A DNA stretch of 64,000 bases from Burkholderiales bacterium 67-32 (lineage in GTDB: Bacteria; Pseudomonadota; Gammaproteobacteria; Burkholderiales; Burkholderiaceae_B). How positions within the stretch are numbered: the stretch's first letter is position 1; each line of letters opens with the position of its first letter. Below are positions 13,978-30,920 of the stretch, one piece after another. The stretch covers positions 1-64,000 of the forward strand of contig MKUP01000012.1 of NCBI GenBank assembly GCA_001898625.1, in the 5' to 3' direction. The notes beneath the pieces are model-generated. The model saw nothing but the letters and a program-made list of their open reading frames with translations. It searched no databases and was not told the DNA's origin. Position numbers and translations under genes: made by a program.

Positions 13978-14217
13978 ATGGCAAAACTCAAGCTCGGGCC
14001 GATCGTCGACGAGAAGCCCGTGAAGGCGACGGTGGAATTACCGGCCGCGCTTCACCGAGATCTCTCGGCATATGCGGAGGTATTGGCTCGCGAGTCGAGC
14101 CAGCCCGTTGCTGACCCCATGAAGCTGATCGTGCCGATGCTAGAGCGGTTCATTGCAACTGATCGGGCATTTTCAAGGGCTCGGCGCTCACTTCAATCGT
14201 CGAGAACGCCGCTGTGA
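13978..14217 (+). CDS. DUF2274 protein
   Basis: A 79-aa protein with the DUF2274 pattern: MAKLKLGPI, KVTVELPAALHRDL-type core and a helix ending IATDRAFSRARR. Such genes usually close trb operons of this type; the family has a ribbon-helix-helix look and no proven role. ATG 13978 has GGAGG nearby (13968-13972) and lies directly after trbI. The last residues may have been altered by the junction to the next segment, and the gene overlaps the convergent LysR gene by 68 bp. Confidence 0.82.
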   Translation: MAKLKLGPIVDEKPVKATVELPAALHRDLSAYAEVLARESSQPVADPMKLIVPMLERFIATDRAFSRARRSLQSSRTPL

Positions 14218-15139
14218 CAGCATCTCTATCGTTCGACCTGCCCATTGAGCGGGCAAGCTCGAGGAACTGCAGAAGGGCCGGGTTGTCGTTCTTGGAGGAC
14301 CATAGCGCGCTAAAGGGTAAAACCTCGCCAGTGATCGGTCGGTACGAGATTCCGGGGAACTGTGCCGCCGTCATCGCCTCGCTCACAGCGGTCAGTCCCC
14401 GGTTCAGCGCCACAAGCGGCAGAAGATTCTCCCTGCCCACATGCTGGACTCGTATCTCTGGGTGATGTCCCAAGGCTGCAAGACGCTGCACCAGATAGTC
14501 GTGAATTTCCTGACCTGGTGGCGCTTCATTGACGATGAAGTTTTCCTTCGCGAGTTGGTCCCATCCGACTTCGTCACGCTCCACTAGGCGATGGTCCTCG
14601 GGCAGCACGACAAACACGCGCTCAGACCAGAGAGACACTCTCTCACAGTCCGGCCATTCCCGCTCGCCTGTCACGAAAGCCGCATCAAGCTTGAGCTGCC
14701 GAATGCTCGTCACGTGCTCGGCAGGATTGTCATCGATCAGATCAATCTGAACTTTCGGGTATTGATTGCCATAGCGCCTTAGCAGCTCCGGGAGAAAACC
14801 TGATGCGATCGAGGAATAGATGCCGATCCTGATCAGCCCATGTTCTGAACGGCCGATGGCGGCGACGTCCAGCATGCCGTCGCCGACGCTTCTCAGTATC
14901 TGTCGGGCGCGCCGCAGAAAGCGTTGACCGGCGAAAGTTAGACTAACGCCCGCACTATGCCGATGGAACAACGCAGCGCCGAGATGATGTTCGAGATCGC
15001 GGATGCGTCGGCTGAGTGCGGACTGTTGAACACCAATGGCGGATCCGGCCTTACGGAAGCTGCCATGCTCAGCCGCGGCCACGAAGTAGCGGAGATGACG
15101 AAGCTCCACGGCATGGGTCAACAGTTTCACCATGGCCAT
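14150..15139 (-). CDS. LysR-family transcriptional regulator
   Basis: About 329 aa. The N-terminal winged helix begins ELRHLRYFVAAAEHGSF, with the recognition region SALSRRIRDLE. A substrate-binding domain from about residue 100 to 300 follows. ATGs at 15139 and 15133 are possible; a GTG at 15109 would give the canonical LysR start and is a real alternative. The gene runs toward the trb operon, its 3' end overlapping DUF2274. LysR genes occur after trb operons in related elements, so it may control transfer, or the broken dehydrogenase behind it. The effector is unknown. Confidence 0.85.
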   Translation of the reverse strand: MAMVKLLTHAVELRHLRYFVAAAEHGSFRKAGSAIGVQQSALSRRIRDLEHHLGAALFHRHSAGVSLTFAGQRFLRRARQILRSVGDGMLDVAAIGRSEHGLIRIGIYSSIASGFLPELLRRYGNQYPKVQIDLIDDNPAEHVTSIRQLKLDAAFVTGEREWPDCERVSLWSERVFVVLPEDHRLVERDEVGWDQLAKENFIVNEAPPGQEIHDYLVQRLAALGHHPEIRVQHVGRENLLPLVALNRGLTAVSEAMTAAQFPGISYRPITGEVLPFSALWSSKNDNPALLQFLELARSMGRSNDRDAVTAAFSTIEVSAEPLKMPDQLQ

Positions 15140-15386
15140 CGTCACGCACGCGCCCAAGCTTGGCTCGCCACGAGGAGCATGTGCTCGCCCTTGGTCGGCC
15201 GTATCGCGCGGCCTCGCGTCAATTGCGTCGACGGCGCTTGTCGACAAGCCGGTCGTCGGGACAGGCGCCACCGCATAGCCGCTTACTTCGAGCAACGGAG
15301 CTTGGCGCTTTCGCACCGTAAAGCCAATCGGTTCGGAGGAAAACCGCTGACCAAGAACACACGCTGAAAACTGGGGCGCATCGCGA

Positions 15387-15660
15387 TCAGGCCGCCAGCG
15401 TCGCATTGTCGATGACGAAGCGATACTTGACGTCTCCCCCTGGGCATGCGCTCATAGGCGCCGTTGATCTCGTCGGCTCGGATCATCTCGATGTCGGCGA
15501 CGATGCCGCGCTCGGCACAGAAATCGAGCATTTCCTGGGTTTCCGGAATGCCGCCGATCATCGAGCGGGCGATAGACCGACCCTTGGAGATCAGGTTCAT
15601 CACGTTGGGCGACGGACGCTGCGAGGCCGGGGCCCCCACCGGCGTGAGGATGCAGCTGAC
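15387..15660 (-). pseudogene. remnant of a zinc alcohol dehydrogenase (3' end only)
   Basis: The reverse strand encodes about 90 residues of the C-terminus of an MDR/CAD-type NAD(P)-dependent alcohol dehydrogenase, recognisable from PSPNVMNLISKGRSIA, MIGGIPETQEMLDFCAE and EINGAYERM. A one-base frameshift after ERM must be crossed to reach the family's end (DVKYRFVIDNATLAA and stop at 15387). The nucleotide-binding and zinc domains are missing. It is a dead fragment, probably left by an insertion or deletion between LysR and the exporter. Confidence 0.75.
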
Positions 15661-17348: not shown

Positions 17349-17580
17349 TCAGGCGGCCTGAGCGACCCGCCGGCACTCCTCGGCACAGCGGCGGCATTCT
17401 TCCATGTCGTGCTTGTCCCATTCAGCCGCGCAAGCTTCGCAGATGACAGCACAGAGCTCGGCCCAGCGCTGAGTATTCGCCGAGCCGCGCGCCAATGCAG
17501 AAGCTGACGCAGGTTTCGCAAGCGATTGTGCAGTCGAGACAGGCTTGGATGCAGTCATGGCGGACTTGTTGTTGTGCCAC
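17349..17580 (-). pseudogene. broken four-helix-bundle copper-binding protein (DUF326)
   Basis: GTG at 17580, with AGAGGAGA ahead of it, starts a reading frame with the Cys pattern DCIQACLDCTIACETC. This then leaves the family, while the typical C-terminal half (ELCAVICEACAAEW, MEECRRCAEECRR) continues in another frame to the stop at 17349. Compared with the usual DUF326 layout about 30 middle residues are missing, so a deletion plus frameshift broke the gene. Intact members bind Cu(I) or other soft metals through many Cys. The gene stands directly behind a MerR-type promoter (17663-17694), so it belonged to the metal regulon. Confidence 0.75.
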
Positions 17581-17662
17581 GTTTCAATCTCCTCTCAGCG
17601 GTTGCTTCCTCATTGAAGCGGCTGTGGCCAAATCCTGGGGGGCCCGAGTTCCAGCCGCGCGC

Positions 17663-17694
17663 ACTGTAGCCGCCGTAGTATGGTACGGTGTCAA
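17663..17694 (-). promoter_or_regulatory. MerR-type promoter 1 (leftward, toward DUF326)
   Basis: On the minus strand -35 TTGACA (17689-17694) and -10 TACAGT (17663-17668) are separated by a 20-bp spacer that contains the dyad CCGTA-N6-TACGG. The over-long spacer with a centred dyad is the hallmark of MerR-family promoters, where the regulator untwists DNA to activate. It is one of four promoters of identical layout in the island. Confidence 0.8.
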
Positions 17695-18133
17695 ACAGAA
17701 TCTGCAATGCGCAGATTCGGAGGAACCGGGCTAAGAAAGCGCGTGCCTGTCGGATGGAGTCAGGTGTGCTGGAATTGAGCGCGGTGATGCGGCGCTTCGT
17801 CTTTGCTGGCCATCACGGACTCACAAGGGCGACCTCGAGTCAACCGGATTGTGTACGGCTTACGGCTTCATGGATTATCTCCTTGGGTTGCTACGGATCC
17901 GAGGTTGAGCCTGTCTTCCAATTCGAGCATTTCTGGCTCGGTTGAAACTCACATACGGTCGCCGCCCCGGGGCGGCTGCACCCTTATCCCGCATACGGCG
18001 GCTAGGCTCAGGAGGACGTGACCATTCTTTGGAGCGGTTGTTGAGACCATGTGCCAGGCCGGTTCGTCCGCCTGGATCCGCCGGGGCTGATCAGGCCCCG
18101 TCAGATGGCGAAAGAGGTTTGGGCGGCTTCAGA
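17695..18133. other. gene-poor stretch between promoter 1 and the IS110 remnant
   Basis: No convincing gene is seen; open frames here have no recognisable features. A GC palindrome CCGCCCCGGGGCGG lies near 17960. One end of the IS110 element probably falls inside this stretch, but the terminus could not be fixed without a second copy to compare. Confidence 0.4.
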
Positions 18134-19300
18134 TCAGGCCGGCTTTATGGTGGCACCCTCCATCACTACGCCGGCGGTCGCATACTGCCACAGTGCGACC
18201 AGCAGTTTACGTGCCAAGGCGACGATCAGCGGCTTACGCAGCCGCCCGCCGTTGCGCTCGACCCGCTGTTTGAACCACTGGCTGAGGGCCGAGTCTGGTT
18301 GGTGTCGCAGCCACAGCCAGGCCATCTGTACCATCGTTCCTCTTAGCCGCGGATTGCCCGCTTTTGAGACGCCTTGCTCGTGATCGACAGAACCGCTCTG
18401 CCAGGGCGTTGGCGCAAGTCCGGCATAGGCCGCAAGCTGCCTTCGATTGTCGAAGTGACGATAGAGACCTTCAGACCAGAGTACGTTGGCGAACTCAGCG
18501 CCCACCCCCTTCAGCTGCAGCAGTCTCACCACCGGCGCCGGGTCGTTCTCCTTGGCCCGATCCAGCAGCAGATCATCGCGCGCCGCCTCGACCTTTTGCA
18601 ACTGCTCCAGGATTAGCTCAAGCCGGTCGAGCTCACGCACAACCTGTGCCTTCAGGTGGAAAGGTAAGGCGCGACCATCACCCGTTTGCAGGTCCTCGAG
18701 CCTGGTGCGTCAGTTGCGGCGCAGCGGCTCATAGTCACCGACGCCCTGGGTGAACAGCAACCCCTTGATCCGGTTGACGTGCTCCACCCGCTCGGCGATC
18801 AGCGTCTTTCGCTCCCGGCAGATTCGACGGTGATCCTCTTCCTCGGGGGTCGGCGGCCTGACCATGGAGCAGACCCGCGGCTCGCCGCGCTTATAGGCCA
18901 GCAAGGTCCGTACCAGGGTCTCGGCGTCGATCTTATCGGTCTTCGCCCGCCGGCGCCGCCGCGACACCAGGATCGAGGCGGCGTCGACCACGTGACTCTC
19001 GATCGCTTCGCCCTGAAGCACCCGATGGATCCAGAAGCCGTCTAGTCCAGCCTCCTGGATGACAATAATCCGGAAGCGCTCACCGGTTCGGGTCTGAGCC
19101 TTTTCCTGGAGCGTCGCAAACAGCTCCAGGAGTCCCGCAACGTCCCCGCCCCGCAGAGAATGCTTGGACATCTTCTCCCCGCCACCCGGCGACAGTGAAG
19201 TGATCAGCCAACTTGATCGAGACAGTTCCATCGAAACAAAGATCGCGCCAAGATCGATGCGGATAGCGGCCTGTTCCGGCCGATTTGCAACCTGTTGCAT
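18134..19300 (-). pseudogene. IS110-family transposase with in-frame stop
   Basis: The reverse strand carries a complete IS110-type transposase: the DEDD domain (visible in RRAKTDKIDAETLVRTLLAY) followed by the Transposase_20 domain (LLQLKGVGAEFANVLW, YAGLAPTPWQSG). One in-frame TGA (18710-18712) interrupts the region between the domains, with the same frame continuing on both sides. So a single nonsense change separates an N-terminal piece from a 168-aa-plus C-terminal piece. IS110 elements usually lack clear terminal inverted repeats, and the ends were not found. The element sits between two divergent MerR-type promoters. Confidence 0.85.
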
Positions 19301-19463
19301 TGTCGTCTCCAGAATGGGTGGGTTTAGCAACGCCATTCTGCCTGACGGCAGGTCGCTATCCACCAGCCCATAGGATCTCGATGCTTTCGCCAGATTCTGA
19401 TTGCCGTAGAGCGCTCTGTTCCAGCTTCAACCTGTGCCCACCCGCATACTGGTGAGAAACGAC

Positions 19464-19495
19464 TTGACCCCGTACCTAGGTACGGATGCTAACGT
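19464..19495 (+). promoter_or_regulatory. MerR-type promoter 2 (ABC exporter - regulator operon)
   Basis: -35 TTGACC (19464-19469), 20-bp spacer with the dyad CCGTA-CCTAGG-TACGG (19470-19485), -10 TAACGT (19490-19495). It reads into the ABC exporter genes that start at 19552 and on to the MerR-family regulator, so the regulator gene lies under its own control. The dyad is fully palindromic including its centre. Confidence 0.85.
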
Positions 19496-19551
19496 TGGAA
19501 ACCGATCCGACAGTGCAGCCTTTTGCTTGCGCGCCCGATCTGGAGTGAAGA

Positions 19552-20748
19552 ATGAGTGCAGTTACAAGAGGGCTGCGAAACCCCTTCCGCACCCGGGTTC
19601 GCACAGGGGTCGTGGTTCTTCTCCTTGCGATCATCATCGGTCTCTTCGCCGTGATGGTTCAAGGCGCCTTCCAGACGCGCGGCAAGCTCGAGAGCCTCCA
19701 AGCGAATGTCCGAACGATGGTGGAGCTGCGCGAGGCCGGCGCCTTCGGTACGGGCGGTTTCGGCGGCGACAGGCCGGTCGGCGCCGACGCGTTCTCGGTC
19801 GGCACCCTCGAGCAGATACGGCGCATTTCCAATGCCGAGCATATCGTAAAGGTGGAGGAGTATATCCATACGCCTCAGGTCGATCCGTCGAGGCCAAACG
19901 CATATGCGATGATCATCGGCTTGCAGCCTTACGCGCCGATGCGCGCGATCGGGGAGGTGGACTACGAGAATGCCGAGATCATCGCGGGACGGGGTCTCGG
20001 CGAGCAGGACGTGGCCCAGGATGTCGCCGTCGTCGGCCGGGTCTATGCCCAGGAGCGTCTCGGGCTCAATGCGGCGAGCGGCGAGACCTCACTCCAGGGC
20101 AGGATGATCACCCTCCAAAGTCAGCCGCTGCGAGTGGTTGGCATCTACGCCACCGGCAACGATTTCGGTGACAACCACGTCTTCGTTCCGCTGGAAACGT
20201 TCCGGCGCATCTACAATCCCGGCGACAAGCTCTCCAAGATCCGCGTCAGGGTCGACTCGATCGCCAATGTCGCGGCCGTCGCGAACGACCTGCAGCAACT
20301 GCCGGGCGTAGATGCCGTGACCGCCGCCGAGCAGGTCTCGACGGCAAAAACGACCCTCGGGAGCATGGCGGCTGCCACGCTCTACGGATCGTTGCTCCTC
20401 TTTGCGATCGGCGGCGTTCTGGTCGTTTTCATCATGATCCTGGCGACGCGTGAGCGGATCAACGAGATCGGCACACTTAAGGCGATCGGCGCCTCCAATT
20501 GGGAGATCGTGAAGCAGTTCCTCGCCGAGGTCCTCGCGGTGACGGCACTTGCAGCCGCGGGCGCGGTGGGTACGGCCGCTCTCTTCGGAACAGTTCTTCG
20601 GGCGGCGTTGGACCTCGAGCTCAGCATTGATCAAAACACGTTGCTCCTGATCCTGCTGGGCGGGTTCGTTTTCGCTGCCCTTGGCAGTCTGTATCCGATC
20701 TTCAAGGGCATTCGGCTGAGCCCGATACAAGCCATGAAGAACACTTGA
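19552..20748 (+). CDS. FtsX/MacB-type ABC transporter permease 1
   Basis: A 398-aa permease with the MacB/FtsX layout: one N-terminal TM (about residues 19-38), a periplasmic domain of about 220 residues and three C-terminal TMs (about 270-295, 320-350 and 360-385). The coupling segment RERINEIGTLKAIGAS precedes the third helix, and the protein ends LSPIQAMKN. Such permeases export substrates from the periplasm or inner membrane mechanically. It stands first after MerR-type promoter 2 and 9 bp before a second, related permease. Placement in a metal regulon is unusual; the substrate is unknown. Confidence 0.88.
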   Translation: MSAVTRGLRNPFRTRVRTGVVVLLLAIIIGLFAVMVQGAFQTRGKLESLQANVRTMVELREAGAFGTGGFGGDRPVGADAFSVGTLEQIRRISNAEHIVKVEEYIHTPQVDPSRPNAYAMIIGLQPYAPMRAIGEVDYENAEIIAGRGLGEQDVAQDVAVVGRVYAQERLGLNAASGETSLQGRMITLQSQPLRVVGIYATGNDFGDNHVFVPLETFRRIYNPGDKLSKIRVRVDSIANVAAVANDLQQLPGVDAVTAAEQVSTAKTTLGSMAAATLYGSLLLFAIGGVLVVFIMILATRERINEIGTLKAIGASNWEIVKQFLAEVLAVTALAAAGAVGTAALFGTVLRAALDLELSIDQNTLLLILLGGFVFAALGSLYPIFKGIRLSPIQAMKNT

Positions 20749-20757
20749 GGAGGCCGC

Positions 20758-22020
20758 ATGGGCATGATCATCCTGGGTCTGCGCAATCTCCTGCGGAACA
20801 AGGTCCGCCTTGTCCTTGTCGCAATCCTGATCGGCGTTCCCTTTTTCCTACTCCTCGCGATGTATTCGATCGGCGACGCGATGCAGCGGCAAACGACCGT
20901 GCTGAACGAGAACGTCAACACAGTCCTACAACTTCGCGGTCGTGGCTCAATGGGCCACGTGAACATGGTTGGCCAGGATCGTCTCCTGCCGCAGGACACG
21001 CTGGAGAAGGTGCGCGGGATCGAACACGTCAGACAGGCCGAGCCGTATCTCCTCGCGATGGCGCCGATTACGCCGCCCAACTTCGTCATGCATGTCGGCT
21101 TGGCACCGGGCGCAGTAAAGCGGCTCGAGTCGCACGGTGAGGCCGGTAACCCGCGGATCATCGCTGGGCGGGATTTCATGCCTGAGGATGCCGGACAGGA
21201 CGTCGCTATCATTGGCCAGGGCTATGCCGAATGGGCCGGGATTAGGCCCGAAGATGTCGGCAAGGCGACGCTCACGATCGACCCAACCCGCACCCATCCG
21301 GCGATCTTCGGAATGGATCGGCCGACGCGGGAATTACGGATCATTGGCATGTACGCCAGCGGCTATATCTTCGGCGACCTCCAGCTCTTCATGCCTGTGG
21401 AGACGTTCCGCTCGATTTACGGCATCGATCAGGGAATCTCCTGGCTATTTGTCAACGTCGACAATGTCGAGAACGTGCCTGTTGTGGCGCAGCGGCTGCA
21501 AGAGGCGGTCGGCGATGTCGCGGATATCCTTGTTCCCGAAAGCGCCGCCGTATTCACGGCGACGACCAGTCAGAGGGTTACGCAGCTCACCAGCGTCGGC
21601 GGCATCCTAGCTGTAGCCCTGATGGTCATCGTCGTCTTCTTCGTGCTCCTGATGATAGTGCGCGAGCGCGCTCGCGAGATCGGCACGCTAAAGGCAATCG
21701 GTGCGAGCAACGGCGGCGTCACCACCCAATTTCTAACGGAGGCCGTGGCGTTGACGCTGCTTGGCGGTGCTCTTGGGCTGCTGCTCTTCCGCGGCATCGG
21801 CGAGATCGTCACCGGACGCTTGTTCGCACTGAGCATCGGGCCGTTTCTGCCGAGCCACTATAAGCCGCTCTTTGAGAGTCTCGCGATCAACAGCAATCTT
21901 TCTGCTTCGACTCTCGCCCTCGTCATTGCCGTCGCTGTGCTGGCGGCGGTGATCGGCAGCGCCTACGGAGTCTGGCAAGCCGTCAAACTCTCTCCCCTTG
22001 AGGCCATGAAGCATGAATAA
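20758..22020 (+). CDS. FtsX/MacB-type ABC transporter permease 2
   Basis: A 420-aa protein related to the preceding permease: N-terminal TM (about residues 15-36), periplasmic MacB-like domain and three C-terminal TMs, with RERAREIGTLKAIGAS and the ending [10 protein letters not shown]. The two permeases probably form a heterodimer. GAGGAGGCCGC (20749 on) provides the ribosome site. Its 3' end overlaps the ATPase gene by 8 bp, so expression of the complex is coupled. Confidence 0.88.
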   Translation: MGMIILGLRNLLRNKVRLVLVAILIGVPFFLLLAMYSIGDAMQRQTTVLNENVNTVLQLRGRGSMGHVNMVGQDRLLPQDTLEKVRGIEHVRQAEPYLLAMAPITPPNFVMHVGLAPGAVKRLESHGEAGNPRIIAGRDFMPEDAGQDVAIIGQGYAEWAGIRPEDVGKATLTIDPTRTHPAIFGMDRPTRELRIIGMYASGYIFGDLQLFMPVETFRSIYGIDQGISWLFVNVDNVENVPVVAQRLQEAVGDVADILVPESAAVFTATTSQRVTQLTSVGGILAVALMVIVVFFVLLMIVRERAREIGTLKAIGASNGGVTTQFLTEAVALTLLGGALGLLLFRGIGEIVTGRLFALSIGPFLPSHYKPLFESLAINSNLSASTLALVIAVAVLAAVIGSAYGVWQAVKLSPLEAMKHE

Positions 22021-22738
22021 ACTGCTGATCGACAACTTGGTCGTTGAGCTGCGCAGCGTCTCCAAGTCCTATCGTAAAGGCAGCGAGACGGTCGATGCGG
22101 TCGCCGGGATCGAACTCACGATACAGGAAAGGGGCATGGTGGCCATCGTCGGCCCAAGCGGAAGCGGGAAGTCGACGCTCTTGCACATGATTGGGGCAAT
22201 GGACCGGCCAACACGGGGCGAGGTCCTCGTCGCTGGGCAGGCCGTGAACAGGCTATCATCAGGCGAGCTGACGCGCTTTCGCAGGCAAACGGTCGGGTTC
22301 GTCTTTCAGACGTTCAATCTGATCCCGAATCTGACGGCGTTGGAGAATGTCGCTTTGCCGATGGAGTTCAACGGCGTCAGCGCCTCGGAGAGGAGCGTGA
22401 GGGCGAAAACATTGCTTGAGCGCTTCCAGCTCGGGCACCGCTTGAAACATCGTCCTCGCGAGCTGAGTGGCGGCGAGATGCAGCGCGTTGCGATCGCGCG
22501 CGCCGTGGCTAACCAACCGCGCCTAGTGCTCGCCGACGAGCCCACCGGCAATCTCGACTCGCGCTCGGGACAGATCATCTACGAACTCCTTCAAGAGGTA
22601 TCGCGGGAACGAACGGTCATTGTCGTTACACATTCAGAAGAACTGGCCAGACTCGCGGATCGGGTCATCCATATTCGGGATGGACATCTCGTGGATGGGC
22701 CGAATTCAGGACATAAGGTGGTTTCTGTTACGCCCTGA
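22013..22738 (+). CDS. ABC transporter ATPase, LolD/MacB type
   Basis: A 241-aa ATPase that completes the FtsX-type exporter. Visible are Walker [10 protein letters not shown] (about residues 47-55), signature LSGGEMQR, Walker [14 protein letters not shown] and the H-loop VTHSEEL. The start overlaps the end of permease 2. The MerR-family gene follows after 55 bp, probably in the same transcript. Confidence 0.93.
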
Positions 22739-22793
22739 CGCCTTTCATGAGAGCCGTTCTCCGCACGAGACTCAAAGCCATCGGGAGATGAGT

Positions 22794-23246
22794 ATGCAAG
22801 CATTCACGATCAGCAAAGCCGCTCACGAGGCGGGAGTGGGCGTCGAAACTGTCCGATTTTACGAACGGCGCGGCTTGATCGAGCAGCCAGAGAAGCCGGG
22901 ACACACCGGATACCGACACTATTCTGCTGAGACGGTGAGACGAATCCGTTTCATCCGCAAAGCGCAACAGATTGGCTTCTCGCTCCGCGAGATCCAGGAA
23001 CTGCTGTGGCTGCGCGCCGATCCCTCGGCGGATTGTAGCGACGTGCGCCAGAAGGCGGCGTCAAAGATCAACGAGGTCGATGAGAAGATCATTGAGCTCA
23101 AGAAGATCCGCAAAGCGCTAGAGAAAGTGATCGCGGACTGTCCTGGCCGGGGGGCACTGAAGGGGTGCACTATTCTAGAGGCGCTTCAGGAGGGGGACCG
23201 GCTTGAAAATCAAACGTCCTCTACTACACGAAGGAAGATCAGATGA
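22794..23246 (+). CDS. MerR-family metal-responsive regulator, Hg/Pb-type Cys set
   Basis: A 150-aa regulator: N-terminal winged helix (FTISKAAHEAGVGVETVRFY), a dimerisation helix and a C-terminal metal loop. Cys81, Cys116 and Cys125 have spacings of 35 and 9, the same as the Hg(II) ligands Cys82/117/126 of Tn501 MerR and also as in PbrR; CueR-like and CadR-like spacings differ. ATG 22794 is preferred to 22788 because GGGAG (22783-22787) is then 6 bases ahead. Its probable targets are the four long-spacer promoters of the island, which carry mer-like half-sites. Hg or another thiophilic divalent ion is the likely inducer; Pb cannot be excluded. Confidence 0.9.
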   Translation: MQAFTISKAAHEAGVGVETVRFYERRGLIEQPEKPGHTGYRHYSAETVRRIRFIRKAQQIGFSLREIQELLWLRADPSADCSDVRQKAASKINEVDEKIIELKKIRKALEKVIADCPGRGALKGCTILEALQEGDRLENQTSSTTRRKIR

Positions 23247-23461
23247 AATCCGTCACGCTCAAGATCGAAGGTATGCACTGCAGCGGCTGTGCACAGAATA
23301 TTAAGGCCCTCGTAAGTTCTGAGGCGGGCGTACGTGGTGCCGATGTTTCCTTCAAAGACGGCCAGGCGCGCATTCTCTTCGATCCGCAGACCGTCAAGGA
23401 AGATCAGCTTGTCGAGGTGATCAAGAAGGCAGGCTACCAAGTTCCGGCTCAGGATCAGTGA
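23243..23461 (+). CDS. small heavy-metal-associated (HMA) chaperone
   Basis: A 72-aa HMA-domain protein with the metal site GMHCSGC (Cys13 and Cys16) and the ferredoxin-like fold of CopZ/MerP. No signal peptide is present, so it acts in the cytoplasm, presumably passing metal to the P1B ATPase or buffering it for the regulator. It is coupled by 4-bp overlaps to the regulator before it (ATGA) and to the CcdA-like gene after it (GTGA). Confidence 0.92.
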   Translation: MKSVTLKIEGMHCSGCAQNIKALVSSEAGVRGADVSFKDGQARILFDPQTVKEDQLVEVIKKAGYQVPAQDQ

Positions 23462-24133
23462 CCGAGCTGGGAGCTTTTCAACTCGTGGTCCTTCCAATCG
23501 GGCTCGGCCTTCTCGGCTTTGTAGAAACCATGCTCGATAGGATCGACCCTGGTTTTTGTAAAATACATCGAAGGCAAGACCTTCGCAGATAAACTTGTCC
23601 AAATCGGTGTCTTTGCGGTCACTCGTGCAGTGCTCATCGGAGCATTGGGCATGGCAGCCGTTGTCATCGGTATCGCCTTCATAGGCTTCCAAAAGGCTGC
23701 CTGGATCGTGCTTGGCGCGATTTATGTGGCGATCGGCCTGTTGTACATTTTACGCCGTGCTGGATCGCTGAAGATTTCACTTGGACCCGCCCTCGGCGGC
23801 CTGTCTGGGTCACGTGGTTCCATCGCCTTGGGTCTGTTGTTTGGCCTCAATATTCCAGCGTGCGCTGCGCCGCTGATGTTTGCCTTGTTGGGCATGGCTG
23901 CAGCAGGCGGCGTGAGCGGTGGAACCCTTTCGGCTGGGTTTATTTCATTGAGTCTCTTCGGGTTCGCGTTGTCGCTCCCGATCGTCGCAGCGGTGCTGGT
24001 CCCGTCGGCGCGGCGGGCGCTGGATTGGCTGTCCTCCTTATCGCGACGACTACCGCTCTGGACTGGTTTGCTGCTCGTCGCCCTTGGTCTTTGGTCGATC
24101 GGCTTCGGTTTATTTGCCGAGATCAAGGCTTAG
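23458..24133 (+). pseudogene. CcdA-like membrane protein, frameshifted
   Basis: From GTG 23458 the frame reads VTELGAFQLVVLPIGLGLLG and then, at GTAGAAACC (about 23521-23529), needs one A removed to continue as GFVEPCSIGSTLVFVKY and on through six hydrophobic helices to the stop at 24133. The intact protein would have about 224 aa, of the CcdA/DsbD transmembrane family, with the Cys of VEPC in the position where CcdA has its first thiol. An ATG at 23630 could still make the last 167 aa. The change lies in a short A run, so a sequencing error or a recent mutation is equally possible. It is coupled to the preceding HMA gene. Confidence 0.8.
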
Positions 24134-24169
24134 CTCATGAGCCGGGCAGAATGACGCGCCGATCCCCGC

Positions 24170-24201
24170 TTGACTCCGTAGGTTGGTACGGAGCGTAGAC
24201 T
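24170..24201 (+). promoter_or_regulatory. MerR-type promoter 3 (P1B ATPase operon)
   Basis: -35 TTGACT (24170-24175), 20-bp spacer with CCGTA-GGTTGG-TACGG (24176-24191), -10 TAGACT (24196-24201). The P-type ATPase starts 59 bp downstream. The first 11 bases, TTGACTCCGTA, equal the start of the classical mer operator-promoter. Confidence 0.85.
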
Positions 24202-24259
24202 CGGCTCAACTGGACGCCGTCGGAAGCTCGACGGCTACTGTTGGACCGGAGGTCACGTT

Positions 24260-26716
24260 ATGAACACGGCTACAGCGATTGCACCCCGTACCCAGCCTTG
24301 GAGCGAGGAGCCGGCGAGCCGACCCGATCGGGCCAGGATACGCGCTCGGATTGGCGGTCTGCATTGCTCGCTTTGCACTGGAACGATCGAAAAGGCGCTT
24401 GGCAGCCAAGCAGGCGTCGATAAAGTTGCGGTAAGCCTCACGCATGAGCAGGCGCTGGTCGAATACGACCCGAGCGTCGCCCGCCCCGAGGTGTTGCTGA
24501 AAATCCTGCGCGATATCGGCTATACAATTTCAGATCCACGCAAGGTTCGGCCCTTCGAAGAGGAGGAGCGCGAGCTCGTCCGCGAAGGTCGCCGTTTTCT
24601 CGTTGCGACCGCGTTCAGCCTCCTCGCCATAGCCCTAATTACCAACCCGATGGGTATCGCGGCCCTCGCCATCCATGGCGTGGTATTTTTCAGCCTCATC
24701 GGGTTGATGTTCCTCGTGCTGCGAGCACGAGGCCTCGCTCCAGCGATTCTCGGAGCCGGCGGATTGGGCATCGCCGCACTCGCGCTGATGCTCGTGAAGG
24801 AGCAGGCTTGGTTCGCTGCAGCCGTTCCGTGGCTTGTCGCCGCCATGGCCGTCATCCTCGTCTTTGGCATTGGACGCCATATTCTGGTGATGGCAGCGCA
24901 GGCACTGCGCCGGGGCATTCTCAATCAACATGTCTTGCTTGAGACGGGTGCCTTCGCCGGCATCATTGGCGGCATGATCGGGTTCATTTTCTCCCCCGCA
25001 GCCTACCCGACGGCAGCCTTTTTCGCAGTTTCAGTGATGGTCACGACCTACCACATCTTCTCGGAATGGCTCTCGCTGATCGTCAAGACCCGCAGTTCGC
25101 AGGCGGTGAAACAGCTCCTCGATCTTCAGCCGGAAACCGCGCGCGTCGAGCGCAATGGCCAGGAGTTGGAACTGCCGATCGCGGAGGTGGCGATCGGCGA
25201 TCTCGTCCGTATTCGTCCTGGTGAGCGCGTGCCAGTCGATGGTGAGGTGGCTAGCGGGCATTCGGCGGTCGATCAGTCCTTCGTGACCGGCGAGCCGATT
25301 CCGGTCGAGCGGAAAAAAGGCGACGCGGTGATCGGCGGTTCAATCAATGGCAATGGCACGTTGCTCGTTCTGGTGCGAGCGGTCGGCGAGGGGAGCTTCC
25401 TGCACAAGGTAATTCGCGAGGTTGAGGACGCTCGGGCACTCAAGCCAGGCCTCTTGCATCTCGTTGACCGAGTTCTTCAGGTATATACGCCGGCAGTCCT
25501 CATTATTGCGATGCTCGCTCTTGTCGGTTGGCTGGTCGGATCCTGGCTCGTATCCGGCGAAGTCGACTTGGAACGGGCAATCTTCGCCGGCTTGAGTGTG
25601 CTTGTAATGGGATATCCTTGCGCGGTGGGTATCTCCGCGCCGCTGTCAATAGTGCGCGGTGCTGGTGAGGCGGCCGAACGGGGCGTTCTAATGCGCACGG
25701 GCGAAGCCTTCCAAGGCTTCCGTCTGGTAAAGACCATTGTTCTCGACAAGACCGGCACGCTTACTCAGGGCAAGCCTGCGGTTCGTGAGATTGAGGCCAT
25801 TAATGGCGAAGAGGATGAGCTGTTAGCGTTGGCGGCAGCGGCAGAAGCTTCCTCTGAACACCCGCTCGCGCAGGCAGTGGTCACGGCGGCTTTCGAGCGA
25901 GGCGCCGTCCCGCCAGACGTCGAGTCCTTTGAGGCTGTACCCGGCAAAGGCATCGCTGCGAAGATCGATGGCGGGGAGATCCTGGTCGGCAGTCCACGCT
26001 TTCTCTCGGAGCGAGGCGTGGACCTTTCGACGCTTACTGATCGAATTGCGGCGCTGGAGGAAGTCGGCCGGACAGTGATCGCCGTCGGCAGACACGGACA
26101 GTCGCTCGGCATCATTGCCCTAGGTGACACGCTGAAAAGCGACGCCAAGGAAGCAGTTGCGGGAATGAGGTCCGACGGGCTTCGCCTGATTCTGCTGACC
26201 GGTGACAATGAGCGCGCCGCGCAAAAGGTCGCGCGAGACGTCGGCATAGAAACTGTGCACGCCGGCATTTTGCCCGATGGCAAGGCGGAGATCATCCGAA
26301 AGCTCCAAGCGGGCGGAACGAGGGTCGCGATGGTGGGCGACGGTATCAATGATGCCCCCGCATTGATGCAGGCGGATGTCGGCGTCGCTATGGGTGGTGG
26401 CACCGACATCGCGATCGAATCCGCTGACATCATCATCCTGTCCAATCGCTTGGACGCCGTTCTGGTCGCGCGCCAGATCAGCCGAAGGAGCTACCGTAAG
26501 ATGCTCCAGAACGTGACTCTTGCGTTCCTATTCAACGGCGTCGGAATCCCGATCGCCGCGACAGGTCTCATTTACCCGGTGTGGGCCATGGTGGCGATGG
26601 CGGTCAGCGTCACGGCCATCTTCTTCAATTCGCTATGGGGACGGCCGCAGCTCTTTTTTGATGCGGTCCTCAGTGTAGGAAAGAAGGTCGAGTCGCCTTT
26701 GGCTCAGACGGCGTGA
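24260..26716 (+). CDS. P1B-type heavy-metal ATPase with YPC membrane motif
   Basis: An 818-aa metal-exporting ATPase. It has an N-terminal HMA domain with GLHCSLC (Cys36, Cys39), about eight TM helices, an actuator loop with FVTGEPIPV, the transmembrane metal site MGYPCAVG (Tyr452-Pro-Cys454), phosphorylation motif DKTGTLT (Asp496), P1B marker SEHPLA and GDGINDAP. Most P1B ATPases have CPC, SPC, TPC or CPH at the membrane site; Tyr in front of Pro-Cys is uncommon and prevents assignment to the Cu, Zn/Cd/Pb or Co groups. The start has GGAGGT at 24247-24252. It probably removes the inducing metal from the cytoplasm. The next gene overlaps by 4 bp. Confidence 0.93.
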   Translation: MNTATAIAPRTQPWSEEPASRPDRARIRARIGGLHCSLCTGTIEKALGSQAGVDKVAVSLTHEQALVEYDPSVARPEVLLKILRDIGYTISDPRKVRPFEEEERELVREGRRFLVATAFSLLAIALITNPMGIAALAIHGVVFFSLIGLMFLVLRARGLAPAILGAGGLGIAALALMLVKEQAWFAAAVPWLVAAMAVILVFGIGRHILVMAAQALRRGILNQHVLLETGAFAGIIGGMIGFIFSPAAYPTAAFFAVSVMVTTYHIFSEWLSLIVKTRSSQAVKQLLDLQPETARVERNGQELELPIAEVAIGDLVRIRPGERVPVDGEVASGHSAVDQSFVTGEPIPVERKKGDAVIGGSINGNGTLLVLVRAVGEGSFLHKVIREVEDARALKPGLLHLVDRVLQVYTPAVLIIAMLALVGWLVGSWLVSGEVDLERAIFAGLSVLVMGYPCAVGISAPLSIVRGAGEAAERGVLMRTGEAFQGFRLVKTIVLDKTGTLTQGKPAVREIEAINGEEDELLALAAAAEASSEHPLAQAVVTAAFERGAVPPDVESFEAVPGKGIAAKIDGGEILVGSPRFLSERGVDLSTLTDRIAALEEVGRTVIAVGRHGQSLGIIALGDTLKSDAKEAVAGMRSDGLRLILLTGDNERAAQKVARDVGIETVHAGILPDGKAEIIRKLQAGGTRVAMVGDGINDAPALMQADVGVAMGGGTDIAIESADIIILSNRLDAVLVARQISRRSYRKMLQNVTLAFLFNGVGIPIAATGLIYPVWAMVAMAVSVTAIFFNSLWGRPQLFFDAVLSVGKKVESPLAQTA

Positions 26717-27093
26717 AGGAGCACGGCAGTGGGACGATGAAATTCCGCGCGCCGGCGGAGGTGCTCGACGATCATTTGCGTGAAAGTCAGCACGGCACCG
26801 TCGAAGACGATCTGGCGCGGAATTATGCTGAGGATCTCGTCGTGCTGACGGCGAGCGGCGTCTTCAGAGGCCACGACGGCTTACGCCAGCTCGCCCAACG
26901 GCTCAGAGAAGAGCTGCCCGAGGCTGTGTTCGAATACAAGAACATGTTGGTTGAAGGCGAACTCGGCTTTCTCGAGTGGAGTGCACGCGGTAGCGGTGCC
27001 GAAGTCGAGGATGGCGCGGACAGCTATCTGATCAGGGACGGACGGATTGTCGCACAGACGATCCACTACACCGTCATCCCGTCGAACGGCTGA
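26713..27093 (+). CDS. NTF2-like (SnoaL) protein
   Basis: A 126-aa protein with the NTF2-like cone pattern: an N-terminal helix (EVLDDHLRESQHGTVEDDLARN), then strands with DLVVLTASGVFRGHDGL, FLEWSARG and IRDGRIVAQTIHYTV. The family includes ligand binders and small isomerases; no catalytic role can be assigned. GTG 26713 overlaps the ATPase stop (GTGA); ATG 26737 is the alternative start and would drop eight residues. Its place between the ATPase and MFS genes makes it part of the metal operon. Confidence 0.75.
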   Translation: MKEHGSGTMKFRAPAEVLDDHLRESQHGTVEDDLARNYAEDLVVLTASGVFRGHDGLRQLAQRLREELPEAVFEYKNMLVEGELGFLEWSARGSGAEVEDGADSYLIRDGRIVAQTIHYTVIPSNG

Positions 27094-27203
27094 GAGGTTT
27101 CCAAAGGAACCCAGAAAATCGGTAAGCAGCCAGATACCGGCCCGGCTGCGAAACCCGTCTCAGCTCGTGTCAGAGCGAGTCGATAAGAAGGACTTTGAGC
27201 CCA

Positions 27204-28433
27204 ATGACTACTGCAACGCCCCTTAGCGCGGCGAATGGCCGACGCGAGCGTCTACTTTGGATGCTCTCGCTAGCGACATTTATGATTTTCTTTCAGGCCT
27301 ATATGGTCGCGCCGATTCTCCCAACTCTTGCTGACGACTTTGGGACCTCGATCCAACGCATCAGCCTTATAGTGCCGGCGTACCTGATCCCCTACGGCGT
27401 TGCGACGCTTGTCTACGGACTGTTGGCCGATCGGCTTGGCATCCACCGCGTCATGTTCGCTTCGCTGGCCCTCTTCGCGGTGCTCACCGGATTGACAGCG
27501 ACCGCAACCTCGATTGAGCAGATCACAGCTTGGCGGGTGCTAACAGGGCTGGGCGCCAGCGGCGTTGTTCCTCTCGGCCTAACGCTTATCGGTCGGCTTT
27601 ATCCCTATGAACAACGTGGACGCCCTCTCGGATGGCTATTCGGCGCGATGGCCGGGGGGATGGCTTTTGGGTCGCCATTGGGCGCAATGATGGTTCCTCA
27701 TATCGGCTGGCAGGGGTTATTCGTCGTCGTAGGAGCAGCAGGATTGGGATCCCTGCTTCTTTTCTTGCCTTACCGACGCATCATCGCTGCTGCGGCGCAG
27801 CCGGTAATGAGCACGTCCCGAGACGTATTCCGCGCCTACAAGAGCCTTCTGCAGACGCCAAGAGGGCGGCGCACCTACAGCTATGTCCTCATCAACTCCA
27901 TGTTTCATTCCGGGGTCTTCACGTGGCTTGGGGTTTATCTTGAGCGTCGCTACGACATCGGTCCGGCCGGCATCGGTCTCGCGTTGCTTGGATATGGCGT
28001 TCCAGGGTTGTTGCTCGGGCCGGTTATCGGCCGAATGGCCGACCGATGGGGGCGTGCGAGGTTGCTGCCAATTGGGCTCATGCTTGGCAGCATCGCAGCC
28101 GTGTTCTTGCTGCTTGGCTTTCCGTTGATCCTTGCTCCACTGGTCGCGATGTTGCTTTCCTTGGGCTACGACATGACCCAACCCCTATTCGGCGGGATTG
28201 TGACCTCCCTTGGGGGCGAGCGGCCTGGGCAAGCCATGGGGCTGAACGTCTTTATGCTCTTTGTCGGCTTTGGGCTTGGGAGCCTCATCTTCGGCGAGAT
28301 GCTTCGGTTTGGCTTCGGAACCGCCTTGGCGTCATTTGCCCTTATCGAACTGGCGTTGGCTTTGATGTCGCTCCGTTTGTTCAGGTCGGAGATCCCTTCA
28401 TCTCCTGCGCCTGGTACCCGCAGTGCCCCTTGA
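27204..28433 (+). CDS. MFS exporter (DHA1-like)
   Basis: A 409-aa protein with about 12 TM helices. The motif A-like YGLLADRLGIHRVMF lies between helices 2 and 3, and VLTGLGASGVVPLGLTLIGRLYP fits a DHA1-type drug exporter. ATG 27204 is taken as start with AAGGA upstream (27188-27192); TTG 27195 is possible. There is no MerR-type dyad in the 110 bp before it, so it is probably read through from promoter 3. Its TGA lies inside the -35 box of MerR-type promoter 4. Confidence 0.88.
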   Translation: MTTATPLSAANGRRERLLWMLSLATFMIFFQAYMVAPILPTLADDFGTSIQRISLIVPAYLIPYGVATLVYGLLADRLGIHRVMFASLALFAVLTGLTATATSIEQITAWRVLTGLGASGVVPLGLTLIGRLYPYEQRGRPLGWLFGAMAGGMAFGSPLGAMMVPHIGWQGLFVVVGAAGLGSLLLFLPYRRIIAAAAQPVMSTSRDVFRAYKSLLQTPRGRRTYSYVLINSMFHSGVFTWLGVYLERRYDIGPAGIGLALLGYGVPGLLLGPVIGRMADRWGRARLLPIGLMLGSIAAVFLLLGFPLILAPLVAMLLSLGYDMTQPLFGGIVTSLGGERPGQAMGLNVFMLFVGFGLGSLIFGEMLRFGFGTALASFALIELALALMSLRLFRSEIPSSPAPGTRSAP

Positions 28434-28461
28434 CTCCGGACTGTGGTACGGAACGCATAAT
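28430..28461 (+). promoter_or_regulatory. MerR-type promoter 4 (HMA-CcdA-HMA operon)
   Basis: -35 TTGACT (28430-28435) overlaps the MFS stop codon. A 20-bp spacer carries CCGGA-CTGTGG-TACGG (28436-28451), one mismatch from the other three dyads. The -10 CATAAT (28456-28461) is the closest of the four to consensus. The HMA gene starts 54 bp downstream. Confidence 0.8.
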
Positions 28462-28515
28462 CCCTTGGTCAAAGGTGCATGTGCTAGGCGCGCGCAACCG
28501 TATGGAGAAACCGCT

Positions 28516-28872
28516 ATGACGATCAGGAGTGCAAAGACGAGATTGCCTAGCGCTCGTTTGGTCGCACTGCTTTCGCTCGTCGCGCTGCTTCTCGCTGTCA
28601 TTTTCGCAGTTGGGATGGCGACAAGCTCAGCTTCCGATAAGGCTGTAGGAACGACGGTCATCGTGCCGGTGACCGGTATGTCGTGTGTGAGCTGTGCCGC
28701 GACGATCAAGCGAACTGTGAAGAACATCGACGGCGTATCTAATGTCGAGGTGAGCTTGGCGGCCAGGACGATGCGCGTGACCTATGCCCCTGCACGTGTT
28801 TCACCTGACCGAATCGTAGCCGCTGTGAACGCCCTCGGGTATCAAGCTGGAACACCAGTGGAGGCGAAATGA
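28516..28872 (+). CDS. membrane-anchored or exported HMA protein
   Basis: A 118-aa protein with a basic start, one hydrophobic segment (about residues 14-37) and a C-terminal HMA domain with TGMSCVSCAATI. The N-terminal helix would place the metal domain in the periplasm, as in MerP, but the segment has no obvious cleavage site and may stay as an anchor. GGAG at 28504-28507 precedes the ATG. It overlaps the CcdA-like gene by 4 bp, so the two are likely partners. Confidence 0.88.
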   Translation: MTIRSAKTRLPSARLVALLSLVALLLAVIFAVGMATSSASDKAVGTTVIVPVTGMSCVSCAATIKRTVKNIDGVSNVEVSLAARTMRVTYAPARVSPDRIVAAVNALGYQAGTPVEAK

Positions 28873-29558
28873 CGTTGGAGTCTGCGTTGCAGTCGATCCA
28901 ACTTGGGCTCGCTGGAGGGGCACTCCTGCCAGCAATCGGAACCACGTTCCTCGCAGGTATTTTAGCGAGCGCGGTTTGCCCGTGCACATTGCCTGTCGGG
29001 CTCAGCGTCGCGGGTATGGCTGGTGCATCTGATGCTGCAGGTCGTCACGACGGGCTTGCAATCGCAGGGGCTTTCTTCGTTGGCATCGTCGGAAGCCTCA
29101 CAGCGCTTGGTCTCTTTGCGGGTCAACTCGGCGCATTGGCCACGGAGTCATTCGGCCGCAATTGGGCGCTCGCGATGGCGATTATCTCGTTCTCGGCTGC
29201 GGGACTCGCTTTTTGGCGACCACGGGTGTCATTTGATCGACTCCGTGCTTTGCGCAGGCCGGGAGTGGCGGGAGCTTTTGCCTATGGGCTGGTGTTCAGC
29301 CTTGGCACGTCCGTGGCCCCGCTCCTCCTCTTGTTCACGGTCGTTGCCGCGACTGGCGCGCCAAAACTCGGCGTACTTCTGGCGTTCTTTTTCGGCGTTG
29401 GGCGCGGTCTTCCCTTCCTGCTCGCCGGCGTTGCCGCAAGCACTGCCACGCGTTTTACGCGCCTCGGCTTGTTGGGCCGCCCGATTCAGCTCGTGAGCGG
29501 CGCCGCTCTCGTGTTTGTCGGGTGGTACTACGCCCAAGTTTACGCCGCATTGCTCTAA
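28869..29558 (+). CDS. CcdA/DsbD-like transmembrane protein with CPC
   Basis: A 229-aa protein with six or more hydrophobic helices of the CcdA family, which normally moves reducing equivalents across the inner membrane through a Cys pair. The motif SAVCPCTLPVGL sits at the start of the first core helix. The second thiol expected in CcdA (helix 4 region) is not evident; that region reads GLVFSLGTSVAPLL. A role in keeping HMA cysteines reduced, or in metal movement as for MerT, would fit its place between two HMA genes. Confidence 0.85.
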   Translation: MTLESALQSIQLGLAGGALLPAIGTTFLAGILASAVCPCTLPVGLSVAGMAGASDAAGRHDGLAIAGAFFVGIVGSLTALGLFAGQLGALATESFGRNWALAMAIISFSAAGLAFWRPRVSFDRLRALRRPGVAGAFAYGLVFSLGTSVAPLLLLFTVVAATGAPKLGVLLAFFFGVGRGLPFLLAGVAASTATRFTRLGLLGRPIQLVSGAALVFVGWYYAQVYAALL

Positions 29559-29568
29559 TGGAGGACAA

Positions 29569-29802
29569 ATGACCACCCAGCTCAATCCGGATATGACAGT
29601 GATGCTGGAGGTTCCGGGAATGGTCTGCGACGGCTGCGCGGAGAAGATCCGCAGCGCCCTTACGCAGATACCTGGCGTGCACAAAGTCAAAACAAAACTC
29701 TGGCAGAAACAGGTGCAGGTTACCTTCAAAAAGGAAACTGTGAGTGAGAAGGCGATTGTACACGCGCTGTCCCAGCAGGGTTTTGACGCTGCCGCAGCCT
29801 AG
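29569..29802 (+). CDS. small HMA protein
   Basis: A 77-aa HMA-domain protein without signal sequence; metal motif PGMVCDGCAEKI. GGAGG stands 5 bases ahead of ATG 29569. It is the third separate small HMA protein of the island and the last intact cargo gene before the damaged right end. Confidence 0.9.
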   Translation: MTTQLNPDMTVMLEVPGMVCDGCAEKIRSALTQIPGVHKVKTKLWQKQVQVTFKKETVSEKAIVHALSQQGFDAAAA

Positions 29803-30099
29803 AAAACTCGAGGATCTGGTGCTCGATGCGTTCAGGCGCGCCTCTGACGAGGATCGGCTTGATGTCGCTGAGCATCTGTTGTGCGCTCTTGAAACCCTCG
29901 CTGGCCGCGATGGAGGAGAACTTCGATGTTCAGCGTCGCAAGCTCGCTTGAGGCAGGCATATCGGGTGATAGCGCACCGGGCTGATCACCGGCGATAATC
30001 TGGCCGGGCGTCGATGAACCGTTCGGCACAATGCGAAGCGATCTTGATTCAATGCTCGATCGGTGAACTTCCTGCGGATGATTGTGGCGGGTGCAGCTG
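29803..30099. other. no recognisable gene between cargo and right-end remnants
   Basis: One frame reads KLEDLVLDAFRRASDEDRLD from about 29807 to about 29925 and looks protein-like, but it has no start codon in a good position and no known family. It may be a truncated small gene. Otherwise nothing is seen. Confidence 0.35.
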
Positions 30100-30228
30100 A
30101 TGGAGCTGCGCCATCTCCGTTATGTTGTTGCGGCTGCCGATTGCGGCAGCTTCCGGCGTGCAGCCAAGACGCTGGAGATCCAGGAAACCGCGATAAGCTG
30201 CCGCATTCGAGACTTGGAAGATGAGATC
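30100..30228 (+). pseudogene. N-terminal fragment of a LysR regulator
   Basis: From ATG 30100 about 43 residues match the LysR winged helix (MELRHLRYVVAAADCGSF, AISCRIRDLED). They resemble but do not copy the LysR gene at 14150-15139. At about 30228 the LysR sequence stops and, on the opposite strand, relaxase sequence begins. The fragment cannot make a functional regulator. Confidence 0.75.
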
Positions 30229-30620
30229 GATCGTCCTCGCACTTCTCCGCGAACGCCTTTGGATCGGCGTCGTCCCTGCCGGGGCCCGAACAGCCGAGCC
30301 TTCTCCGTCGGGGGTGACGCCTTCGCGGCGCAAATAGTTGAGGTGGGTTGCGAGTGGCGCGTCGCGTCCGCCATGGTGGACCACGCGCGCTTTGACGACG
30401 GCGCCGCGTGAGCGGGAGGTGATAAGCTGATTGGCCTGCATCGATGCGCGCTGCCCACGGTCGAAACGGGAGCGATGGTTCGGCCCAATCATACCCTTGC
30501 GGGCGACCGATCCGCCGACGCGCTGGGCCGCAGCCAGCGCCTACGCGATGAAGGGCTTCGCGCGCTGCTCATCGAGCGGATCCGCCCTGGGCGGATGCGG
30601 AAATCGTCCGCTGCGCTCAT
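30229..30620 (-). pseudogene. inverted, decayed 5' fragment of a second relaxase gene
   Basis: Read leftward from ATG 30620, MSAADDFRIRPGRIRS matches the start of the relaxase at 170. Later parts (RSRFDRGQRASMQANQLIT, ATHLNYLRREGV, AFAEKCEDD) match its residues up to about 130, but only across several frameshifts and a TAG in the KPFIA region. The fragment ends within the CEDDR motif, where the LysR piece begins. It is diverged from, not identical to, the left relaxase, so it derives from a related element or an old duplication. Confidence 0.8.
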
Positions 30621-30843: not shown

Positions 30844-30920
30844 TGGCGCGCCCGACACGATTCGAACGTGTGGCCTCCACCTTCGGAGGGTGGCGCTCTA
30901 TCCAGCTGAGCTACGGGCGC
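30844..30920 (-). tRNA. tRNA-Arg (anticodon CCG), intact
   Basis: The reverse strand folds as a complete 77-nt tRNA that includes an encoded CCA end: acceptor GCGCCCG pairs with CGGGCGC, anticodon stem CCACC/GGTGG with loop CTCCGAA (anticodon CCG), T-arm with GTTCGAATC. It lies 248 bp inside the broken host tRNA-Arg and differs from it in D-loop and anticodon stem, so it arrived with the element or replaced the lost host gene. Confidence 0.95.

Follow-up and report, generated by a model that had tools for sequence, protein, structure and literature searches.

Mer-like operators with a 20-bp spacer mark a conserved MerR-family regulon, probably a companion of the mercury reductase pathway

RESULTS

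The gene set and its four promoters

In a 64,000-nt stretch of Burkholderiales bacterium 67-32 (positions 1 to 64,000 of contig MKUP01000012.1; 'the window' below means this whole stretch) we analyzed a MerR-family regulator gene and its neighbors, which code for metal chaperones, CcdA-like membrane proteins and transporters and stand behind four mer-like promoters. The promoters share one pattern, TTGAC-N-CCGNA-N6-TNCGG-N4-YANNNT, i.e. a dyad within a 20-bp spacer. It is matched exactly at 17663-17694 (minus strand, before a DUF326 gene), 19464-19495 (before an exporter, the regulator, HMA1 and CcdA1), 24170-24201 (before a P1B ATPase) and 28430-28461 (before HMA2-CcdA2-HMA3; one half-site reads CCGGA); the last three, like all genes named in the next two paragraphs except the DUF326 gene, are on the plus strand.

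The DUF326/Csp-like gene (17349-17585, minus strand) is Cys-rich and frameshifted, so this copy codes for no intact Cys-rich four-helix protein of the Csp/DUF326 copper-storage type. Its C-terminal piece gives a weak match to the Csp1 model TIGR04401 (25.9 bits, cut-off 100); an intact relative, in locus L029, matches Pfam DUF326. The second promoter precedes an ATP-binding cassette (ABC) exporter made of a MacB_PCD/FtsX permease (FtsX1, 19552-20748, Pfam), a LolC/E-like permease (FtsX2, 20758-22020, NCBIfam matches below cut-offs) and a LolD-like ATPase (22013-22738; TIGR02211, 252 bits, below the cut-off of 307.75). The regulator gene (22794-23246) follows; its product has three metal-binding Cys and the MerR equivalog TIGR02051 is its top model, though at 130.7 bits against a cut-off of 150.85, so we do not file it as MerR. 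It has no operator directly upstream and, lying 3′ of the exporter genes, presumably belongs to the transcript from the 19464 promoter. Overlapping it by 4 bp is HMA1 (23243-23461, Pfam HMA), a cytosolic HMA chaperone, and then comes CcdA1 (23462-24133), a frameshifted gene for a CcdA-like membrane protein, named from a homologue annotated as CcdA in locus L022. A Cys pair spaced by 110 residues was seen in 30 of 32 open reading frames (ORFs) of CcdA1, and a Pfam search with an intact relative gave no match; L029 has an intact reading frame of CcdA1 as well as of the DUF326 gene.

The ATPase gene behind the third promoter (24260-26716) is of P1B type by its heavy-metal P-type score (TIGR01525, 560.7 bits, above the cut-off of 346.25) and its N-terminal HMA domain, in which a pattern search found CSLC in 80 of 93 ATPase hits. 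The CPC motif is replaced by YPC in 87 of the 93 (the motif was not found in the other six, all short ORFs); a search of the open-access full-text literature for 'YPC motif' found nothing. The next relative of the ATPase in this genome is 43% identical. It is followed by genes for a SnoaL/NTF2-like protein (26713-27093, Pfam SnoaL_2) and a major facilitator superfamily (MFS) transporter (27204-28433, Pfam MFS_1). Behind the fourth promoter, HMA2 (28516-28872, Pfam HMA) has its HMA domain after an N-terminal hydrophobic stretch and, judging by this topology read from the sequence, is probably exported or anchored; CcdA2 (28869-29558) belongs to the Pfam family DsbD_TM, and HMA3 (29569-29802, Pfam HMA) is a cytosolic HMA protein. 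CcdA2 has a CPC pair but lacks the partner Cys of CcdA, and thus does not show the Cys pair split between two membrane helices that marks the CcdA/DsbD electron carrier; the CPC pair alone was present in 17 of 18 CcdA2 ORFs, with CSC in locus L086 and an extra C-terminal Cys in loci L057 and L105.

The initial annotation had placed the DUF326 gene, the exporter, the regulator with HMA1 and CcdA1, the ATPase with its two neighbors, and HMA2-CcdA2-HMA3 under the command of these promoters. Sites do stand before the DUF326, ABC, ATPase and HMA-CcdA-HMA genes; the regulator has none of its own directly upstream, and two of the listed genes, DUF326 and CcdA1, are frameshifted.

Between the first two promoters lies a broken IS110-type transposase (18134-19363, minus strand; two ORFs, with Pfam Transposase_20 on 18134-18640), an insertion rather than a member of the set. 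It splits the promoters ending at 17694 and starting at 19464; the corresponding pair in L029 is divergent, 221 bp apart.

Specificity of the operator pattern

No fifth match to the full pattern was found in the window at up to one mismatch. Shuffled sequences gave 0.01 matches on average, and four were reached in 0 of 100 shuffles, so the four mer-like promoters that had been proposed hold exactly and stand alone. The looser dyad taken by itself is uninformative (25 window matches at up to two mismatches, with 17.1 expected). Genome-wide, the −35 box with the dyad occurs five times in 6.66 Mb, its reversed control not once; the fifth site, on contig C18, has a 19-bp spacer and precedes a canonical mer operon. 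Chance as the origin of the four sites is ruled out by the shuffles, the genome-wide count and the reversed controls.

All four window sites have the 20-bp spacer. The half-sites are identical to those of the mer operator, as had been claimed; with a spacer of 20 bp against the 19 bp of the mer operon, the sites are nevertheless not the mer operator proper. The same spacing prevails in related loci: among 70 distinct non-mer sites the −10 box stood at a 20-bp spacer in 65, at 19 bp in one, and was absent in four, whereas sites before merT had a 19-bp spacer in seven of eight cases.

Conservation among related loci

Relatives were found by a contig scan in which the query was limited to the N-terminal third of the ATPase, so as to keep clear of motifs that P-type ATPases share in general. 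The best 80 of 308 ATPase relatives, ten plasmid regions and the window made up a set of 91 loci (1.66 Mb); the 80 were found through the ATPase and therefore all contain it by search design. Loci with a regulator at least 53% identical to that of the window (tblastn; threshold set after viewing the list) were called type A: 50 loci, the window included. Several Methylobacterium and Methylorubrum loci are near-identical (e.g. L073, L075, L077, L078 and L079).

In the 91 loci the operator core was matched 65, 29 and 20 times at zero, one and two mismatches, where near-identical loci are counted separately and a palindrome may be counted once on each strand; the reversed control gave 0, 0 and 2. 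An operator with up to two mismatches is present in 49 of the 50 type A loci, and the regulator lies near at least two such dyads in 19 of them (18 without a site of L080 that lacks an assigned gene); sites with more than two mismatches, that of L019 among them, were dropped. Merging over both strands left 95 sites: 81 before genes of the cluster (regulator, 45; ATPase, 20; FtsX1, 7; HMA2, 5; DUF326, 3; CcdA1, 1), eight before merT and six with no assigned gene within 450 bp. The label of the first window promoter, a site before a DUF326 gene, recurs in L026 and L029. Thus, the regulon is conserved, not a one-off of this window. Its set was also seen on plasmids of relatives, beside ars, cop or mer genes.

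Conservation of the site itself is inflated by the selection of sites; the −10 box and the flanks are unaffected by it. Among non-redundant copies the flanks were at chance (pairwise identity 0.28-0.29), and three −10 positions kept 1.3 to 1.55 bits. Deletion of a former mer operon, with the four sites as its remnants, is ruled out by the other genes, the other spacer and the conservation elsewhere.

When the strict pattern was sought across 18 chosen type A genomes, it gave 35 sites in 17 of the 18 (control, three). Judged by their letters, 31 of these belong to the cluster itself. The four off-cluster sites, in Sphingomonas turrisvirgatae and Methylobacterium variabile, stand before three genes for glutaredoxin-MauE fusions (L110:3410, L112:3009 and L113:2043; two in S. 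turrisvirgatae, one in M. variabile) and one for a MerR-family regulator.

A separate observation concerns haloarchaeal plasmids, which carry ATPases with ∼53% identity over the core; in that of Halorussus limi (L108) the ATPase is without such a neighborhood and has a winged-helix regulator beside it.

The regulator clade

In the regulator tree, type A regulators formed one supported group (98/93; 200 of 200 bootstrap trees), apart from the regulators of mer operons and from a sister group; the alignment has few columns for its number of rows, and the type A label itself was set by identity. The three metal-binding Cys are kept in 48 of the 50 type A regulators (the first is missing in L022 and L035). 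In 23 of the 50 loci the regulator ORF is longer than 190 amino acids and continues into an HMA domain. For 19 further regulator relatives compared with TIGR02051 we have E-values only (best 9.1e-41). Among solved structures the closest were two MerR entries, followed by CueR, ZntR, CadR and 5gpe; one of these near entries, 4ua1, we take to be a Bacillus MerR. When 151 host-family genomes were searched with the regulator, none of the matches listed from outside the window exceeded 48% identity.

Regulators of the sister group, annotated as 'heavy metal-responsive transcriptional regulator', lead thioredoxin-CcdA operons; a CTGGAG-type dyad was seen by eye in 15 of 21 such operons examined. Elsewhere the same ATPase, HMA and MFS cargo stands under a sister-group regulator (L017:13735, L018, L065 and others), and in L121 and L102 both types share one cluster, with merRTPA, a type A regulator-HMA-ATPase-MFS run and a sister regulator followed by thioredoxin-CcdA-merT-merP.

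Association with mercury reductase

The initial annotation noted the absence of mer genes. This is true of the window, where merA, merT and merP are absent among the genes of the cluster, but not of the genome: contig C18 carries merR, merT, merP and merC over NCBIfam cut-offs, and a MerA over its cut-off, part of whose stretch reads N, followed by a short MerR-like ORF, merD by position. A cell lacking mer is ruled out by this operon.

MerA over the curated cut-off was found in 17 of the 18 genomes of type A loci; since these genomes were our choice and not a random draw, the comparison with sampled Alphaproteobacteria (18 of 190 MerA-positive, centre genome included; Fisher p = 1e-14 without the centre) is to be read with that choice in mind. 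In the class samples up to eight (Alphaproteobacteria) and five (Gammaproteobacteria) MerA candidates were scored per genome. The ATPase family occurred in 4 of the 190 Alphaproteobacteria and in 6 of 274 Gammaproteobacteria, always in a merA-positive genome (centres included), merA being present in 56 of the 274. With the centres left out, 8 of 8 ATPase-bearing genomes were merA-positive, against 72 of 462 overall (combined p = 3e-6). Of these eight, the three from Alphaproteobacteria were checked for operators, and the five from Gammaproteobacteria are counted by ATPase family, not by regulator type or YPC motif. In the three alphaproteobacterial genomes the distance between the ATPase gene and merA is 1.7 to 2.4 kb, and the operators have the 20-bp spacer. 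One sampled genome, G308, is apparently that of L102.

At the level of neighborhoods, within the DNA covered, merA was near 18 of the 50 type A loci with a length rule, and near 21 at 55% identity without it. Of other resistance genes, ACR3 was near one locus, ArsC near two, multicopper oxidase near one, CopB and CDF genes near none. The proposed link to mercury is supported by the association with MerA across genomes. The further idea that the set stands in for a missing mer system finds no support: the genome has a mer operon, and so do its relatives' genomes have MerA, in 17 of 18. For the same reason the best reading is that the set is a companion of the reductive pathway rather than its replacement.

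Mobile context

Over positions 4375-30858 the window shares 99.5 to 99.95% identity with a Magnetospirillum sp. 64-120 contig, which begins at the left end of the match; on the right, identity ends at 30858, within the 3′-terminal part of a gene for tRNA-Arg (30844-30920, minus strand). Between 35 and 13976 the window codes for a relaxase, a coupling protein, T2SSE/TrbB-like and TrbE-like proteins, TrbL, VirB8, CagX and TrbI. GC content is 59-61% between 16 and 32 kb, rising to 67-71% farther on. Relaxase, coupling protein, trb-type genes of a type IV secretion system and the tRNA junction are those of an integrative conjugative element, whose left end lies beyond the window; thus the regulon reads as cargo of such an element that more than one class has in common. 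Misbinning in one or the other assembly may instead explain the identity with Magnetospirillum; contamination of the assembly is given as 3.14%.

Near the right end, two short ORFs (30049-30492 and 30082-30411) look, on visual comparison, like the beginnings of the relaxase gene (35-1909) and of a LysR regulator gene (14150-15406); possibly they are duplicated remnants of these gene starts.

DISCUSSION

Relation to described systems

The set resembles the proteobacterial mer system of Tn501 type in its half-sites (TCCGTAC/GTACGGA), its three-Cys sensor and a path that could lead from a periplasmic HMA protein over a membrane Cys pair to a cytosolic HMA protein. It differs from the mer operon in having a 20-bp rather than a 19-bp spacer, several transcripts, no reductase and no merT or merP, and in a regulator which scores below the MerR cut-off and leads or lies inside an operon instead of being divergent. 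According to the available text of Permina et al. (2006, PMC1526738), the proteobacterial MerR signal is a 7-4-7 dyad in a 19-bp spacer, and three mer loci of mixed type have the proteobacterial palindrome with a 20-bp spacer; unlike the sites described here, these precede mer genes, not ATPase, ABC, HMA-CcdA-HMA or DUF326 genes.

A MerR-type regulator in command of a P1B ATPase is also known for GolS (golTSB) and CueR, for GolS together with an HMA-type chaperone. In the accessible parts of the sources, however, these systems have other half-sites, sense monovalent metals and include no CcdA-like or FtsX-type members (PMC8264917; CueR consensus in PMC1526738). MerR subfamilies and their sites are treated in PMC5045206, from the available part of which the 'HMRTR' subfamily, heavy-metal regulators with 22-bp sites, comes close; the annotation of the sister-group relatives is similar. 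Actinomycete entries labelled mercury transporter/CcdA and cation P-type ATPase are tabled with mercury genes in PMC12195606; in the accessible text they are single entries, for which neither an operator nor a regulator clade nor a gene set is given. The parts available of PMC11227200, PMC12195606, PMC3600143, PMC8261052, PMC10433974 and PMC8264917 do not describe the gene set, and we found no description of it in the open-access full-text literature, which agrees with the earlier view that it matches no known operon.

A proposed mode of action

We consider it probable that this is a regulon carried by horizontal transfer, whose regulators form a MerR-family clade of their own, and that it responds to a thiophilic metal, of which Hg(II) is the likeliest, and acts beside MerA. 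The regulator would sit on the CCGTA-N6-TACGG dyads in promoters whose 20-bp spacer is over-long; by analogy with MerR and CueR, metal bound to the three Cys would untwist the DNA and switch on the four transcripts together. The HMA chaperones, one of which many relatives have as a fusion with the regulator, would pass the metal to the YPC-type P1B ATPase, to be pumped out of the cytoplasm. CcdA1 could carry reducing power to thiols, HMA2-CcdA2-HMA3 may form a membrane relay arranged like MerP-MerT-NmerA, and the ABC exporter, the MFS protein and the DUF326 protein might serve envelope and storage. All this would take place beside MerA, not in its place.

One could speculate further that the YPC ATPase is a dedicated Hg(II) exporter fed by the HMA chaperones, that HMA2-CcdA2-HMA3 is a non-homologous counterpart of MerP-MerT-NmerA, and that together they make an unnoticed efflux branch beside merA; we regard this narrower version as tentative, and would sooner doubt it than rely on it.

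Alternative explanations

Several findings weigh against a mercury-responsive regulon, and some of them point to copper, the main rival metal. The ATPase passes the copper subfamily model TIGR01511 (455.5, cut-off 397), outscoring the cadmium subfamily, and copper ATPases are its closest relatives of solved structure; the DUF326 proteins are copper-storage-like; the regulator stays below the MerR equivalog cut-off. Within the DNA covered, neither merA nor merT was near 25 of the 50 type A loci, RND pump genes were near 8, and the genome of L029 carries the regulon with no MerA over cut-off. The ABC, NTF2 and DUF326 members occur in a minority of type A loci (10, 4 and 3 of 50). In an efflux regulon for Cu(I), Ag(I) or Au(I) of the CueR or GolS kind that happens to have mer-like half-sites, the HMA proteins and the ATPase would move copper or gold and the DUF326 protein would store it; besides the ATPase scores and the Csp-like gene, such a system would account for the CPG stretch shared by the regulator and CueR, and the available text of PMC8264917 has GolS in control of a P1B ATPase and the chaperone GolB. 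We nevertheless find it unlikely. A Cys stands at the first-Cys position of MerR in 48 of the 50 type A regulators, where CueR has none in alignments; the half-sites are those of mer; YPC takes the place of CPC; and both the genome-level association and the neighborhoods, where merA outnumbers multicopper oxidase and CopB, favor mercury. For zinc, cadmium or lead the case is far thinner, and we hold efflux of these metals to be very improbable: ZntR-model scores come just behind MerR, the ATPase also exceeds the cadmium-subfamily cut-off (391.2 against 313.5), and the CTGGAG-type dyads of the sister group are like the ZntR consensus (PMC1526738, in its available part), but the half-sites are mer-like, merA is associated with the set and CDF genes are not.

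If the metal is mercury, the set might still feed Hg(II) to MerA, with HMA2-CcdA2-HMA3 as a relay that takes up the metal in parallel to MerP-MerT, while the ATPase and exporters clear only the overflow. The order of an exported HMA protein, a membrane protein with a Cys pair and a cytosolic HMA protein would suit such a relay, as would MerA in 17 of the 18 genomes and the presence of merT-merP within related thioredoxin-CcdA operons of L017 and L018. Yet HMA2, CcdA2 and HMA3 occur in only 16, 15 and 14 of the 50 type A loci, against 50 for the ATPase (fixed by the search design), and uptake with no guaranteed reductase, as in the genome of L029, would be expected to do harm; we think feeding improbable, more so than copper. 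Least probable of all, in our judgment, is that there is no coherent regulon and that a metal-resistance island has gathered independent operons whose mer-like promoters were inherited by chance. Carriage on a conjugative element, plasmids of relatives with ars, cop or mer genes nearby, and a gene content that varies between loci (the MFS gene, e.g., is present in 23 of 50) are what an island would show; against it stand the same sites before the same genes amid flanks at chance level, the recurrence of regulator-HMA ORFs, and the off-cluster operators which, in two genera, stand before glutaredoxin-MauE fusion genes and a further MerR-family gene.

We thus retain the regulon answering Hg(II) beside MerA. 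The initial proposal of a MerR-type regulator with an efflux-and-chaperone set for Hg or another thiophilic metal keeps its regulator, its promoters, its gene set and its link to Hg, and loses the replacement of mer.

Implications

In the available text of two papers (PMC11227200 and PMC12195606) mercury resistance is portrayed as import and reduction, in contrast with efflux by ATPases. A conserved pump-and-chaperone regulon that goes with merA in the genomes sampled suggests that reduction may be only part of the defence in many proteobacteria, and the co-occurrence of the set with MerA may point to a second branch of mercury defence in bacteria that has been overlooked. In genome scans this regulon can be told from mer by its operator grammar, in which the half-sites of mer are combined with a 20-bp spacer; a further type of member, the glutaredoxin-MauE fusion, is already suggested by it. 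The YPC motif marks a possible new substrate class of P1B ATPases, and the set as a whole offers testable genes for mercury defence.

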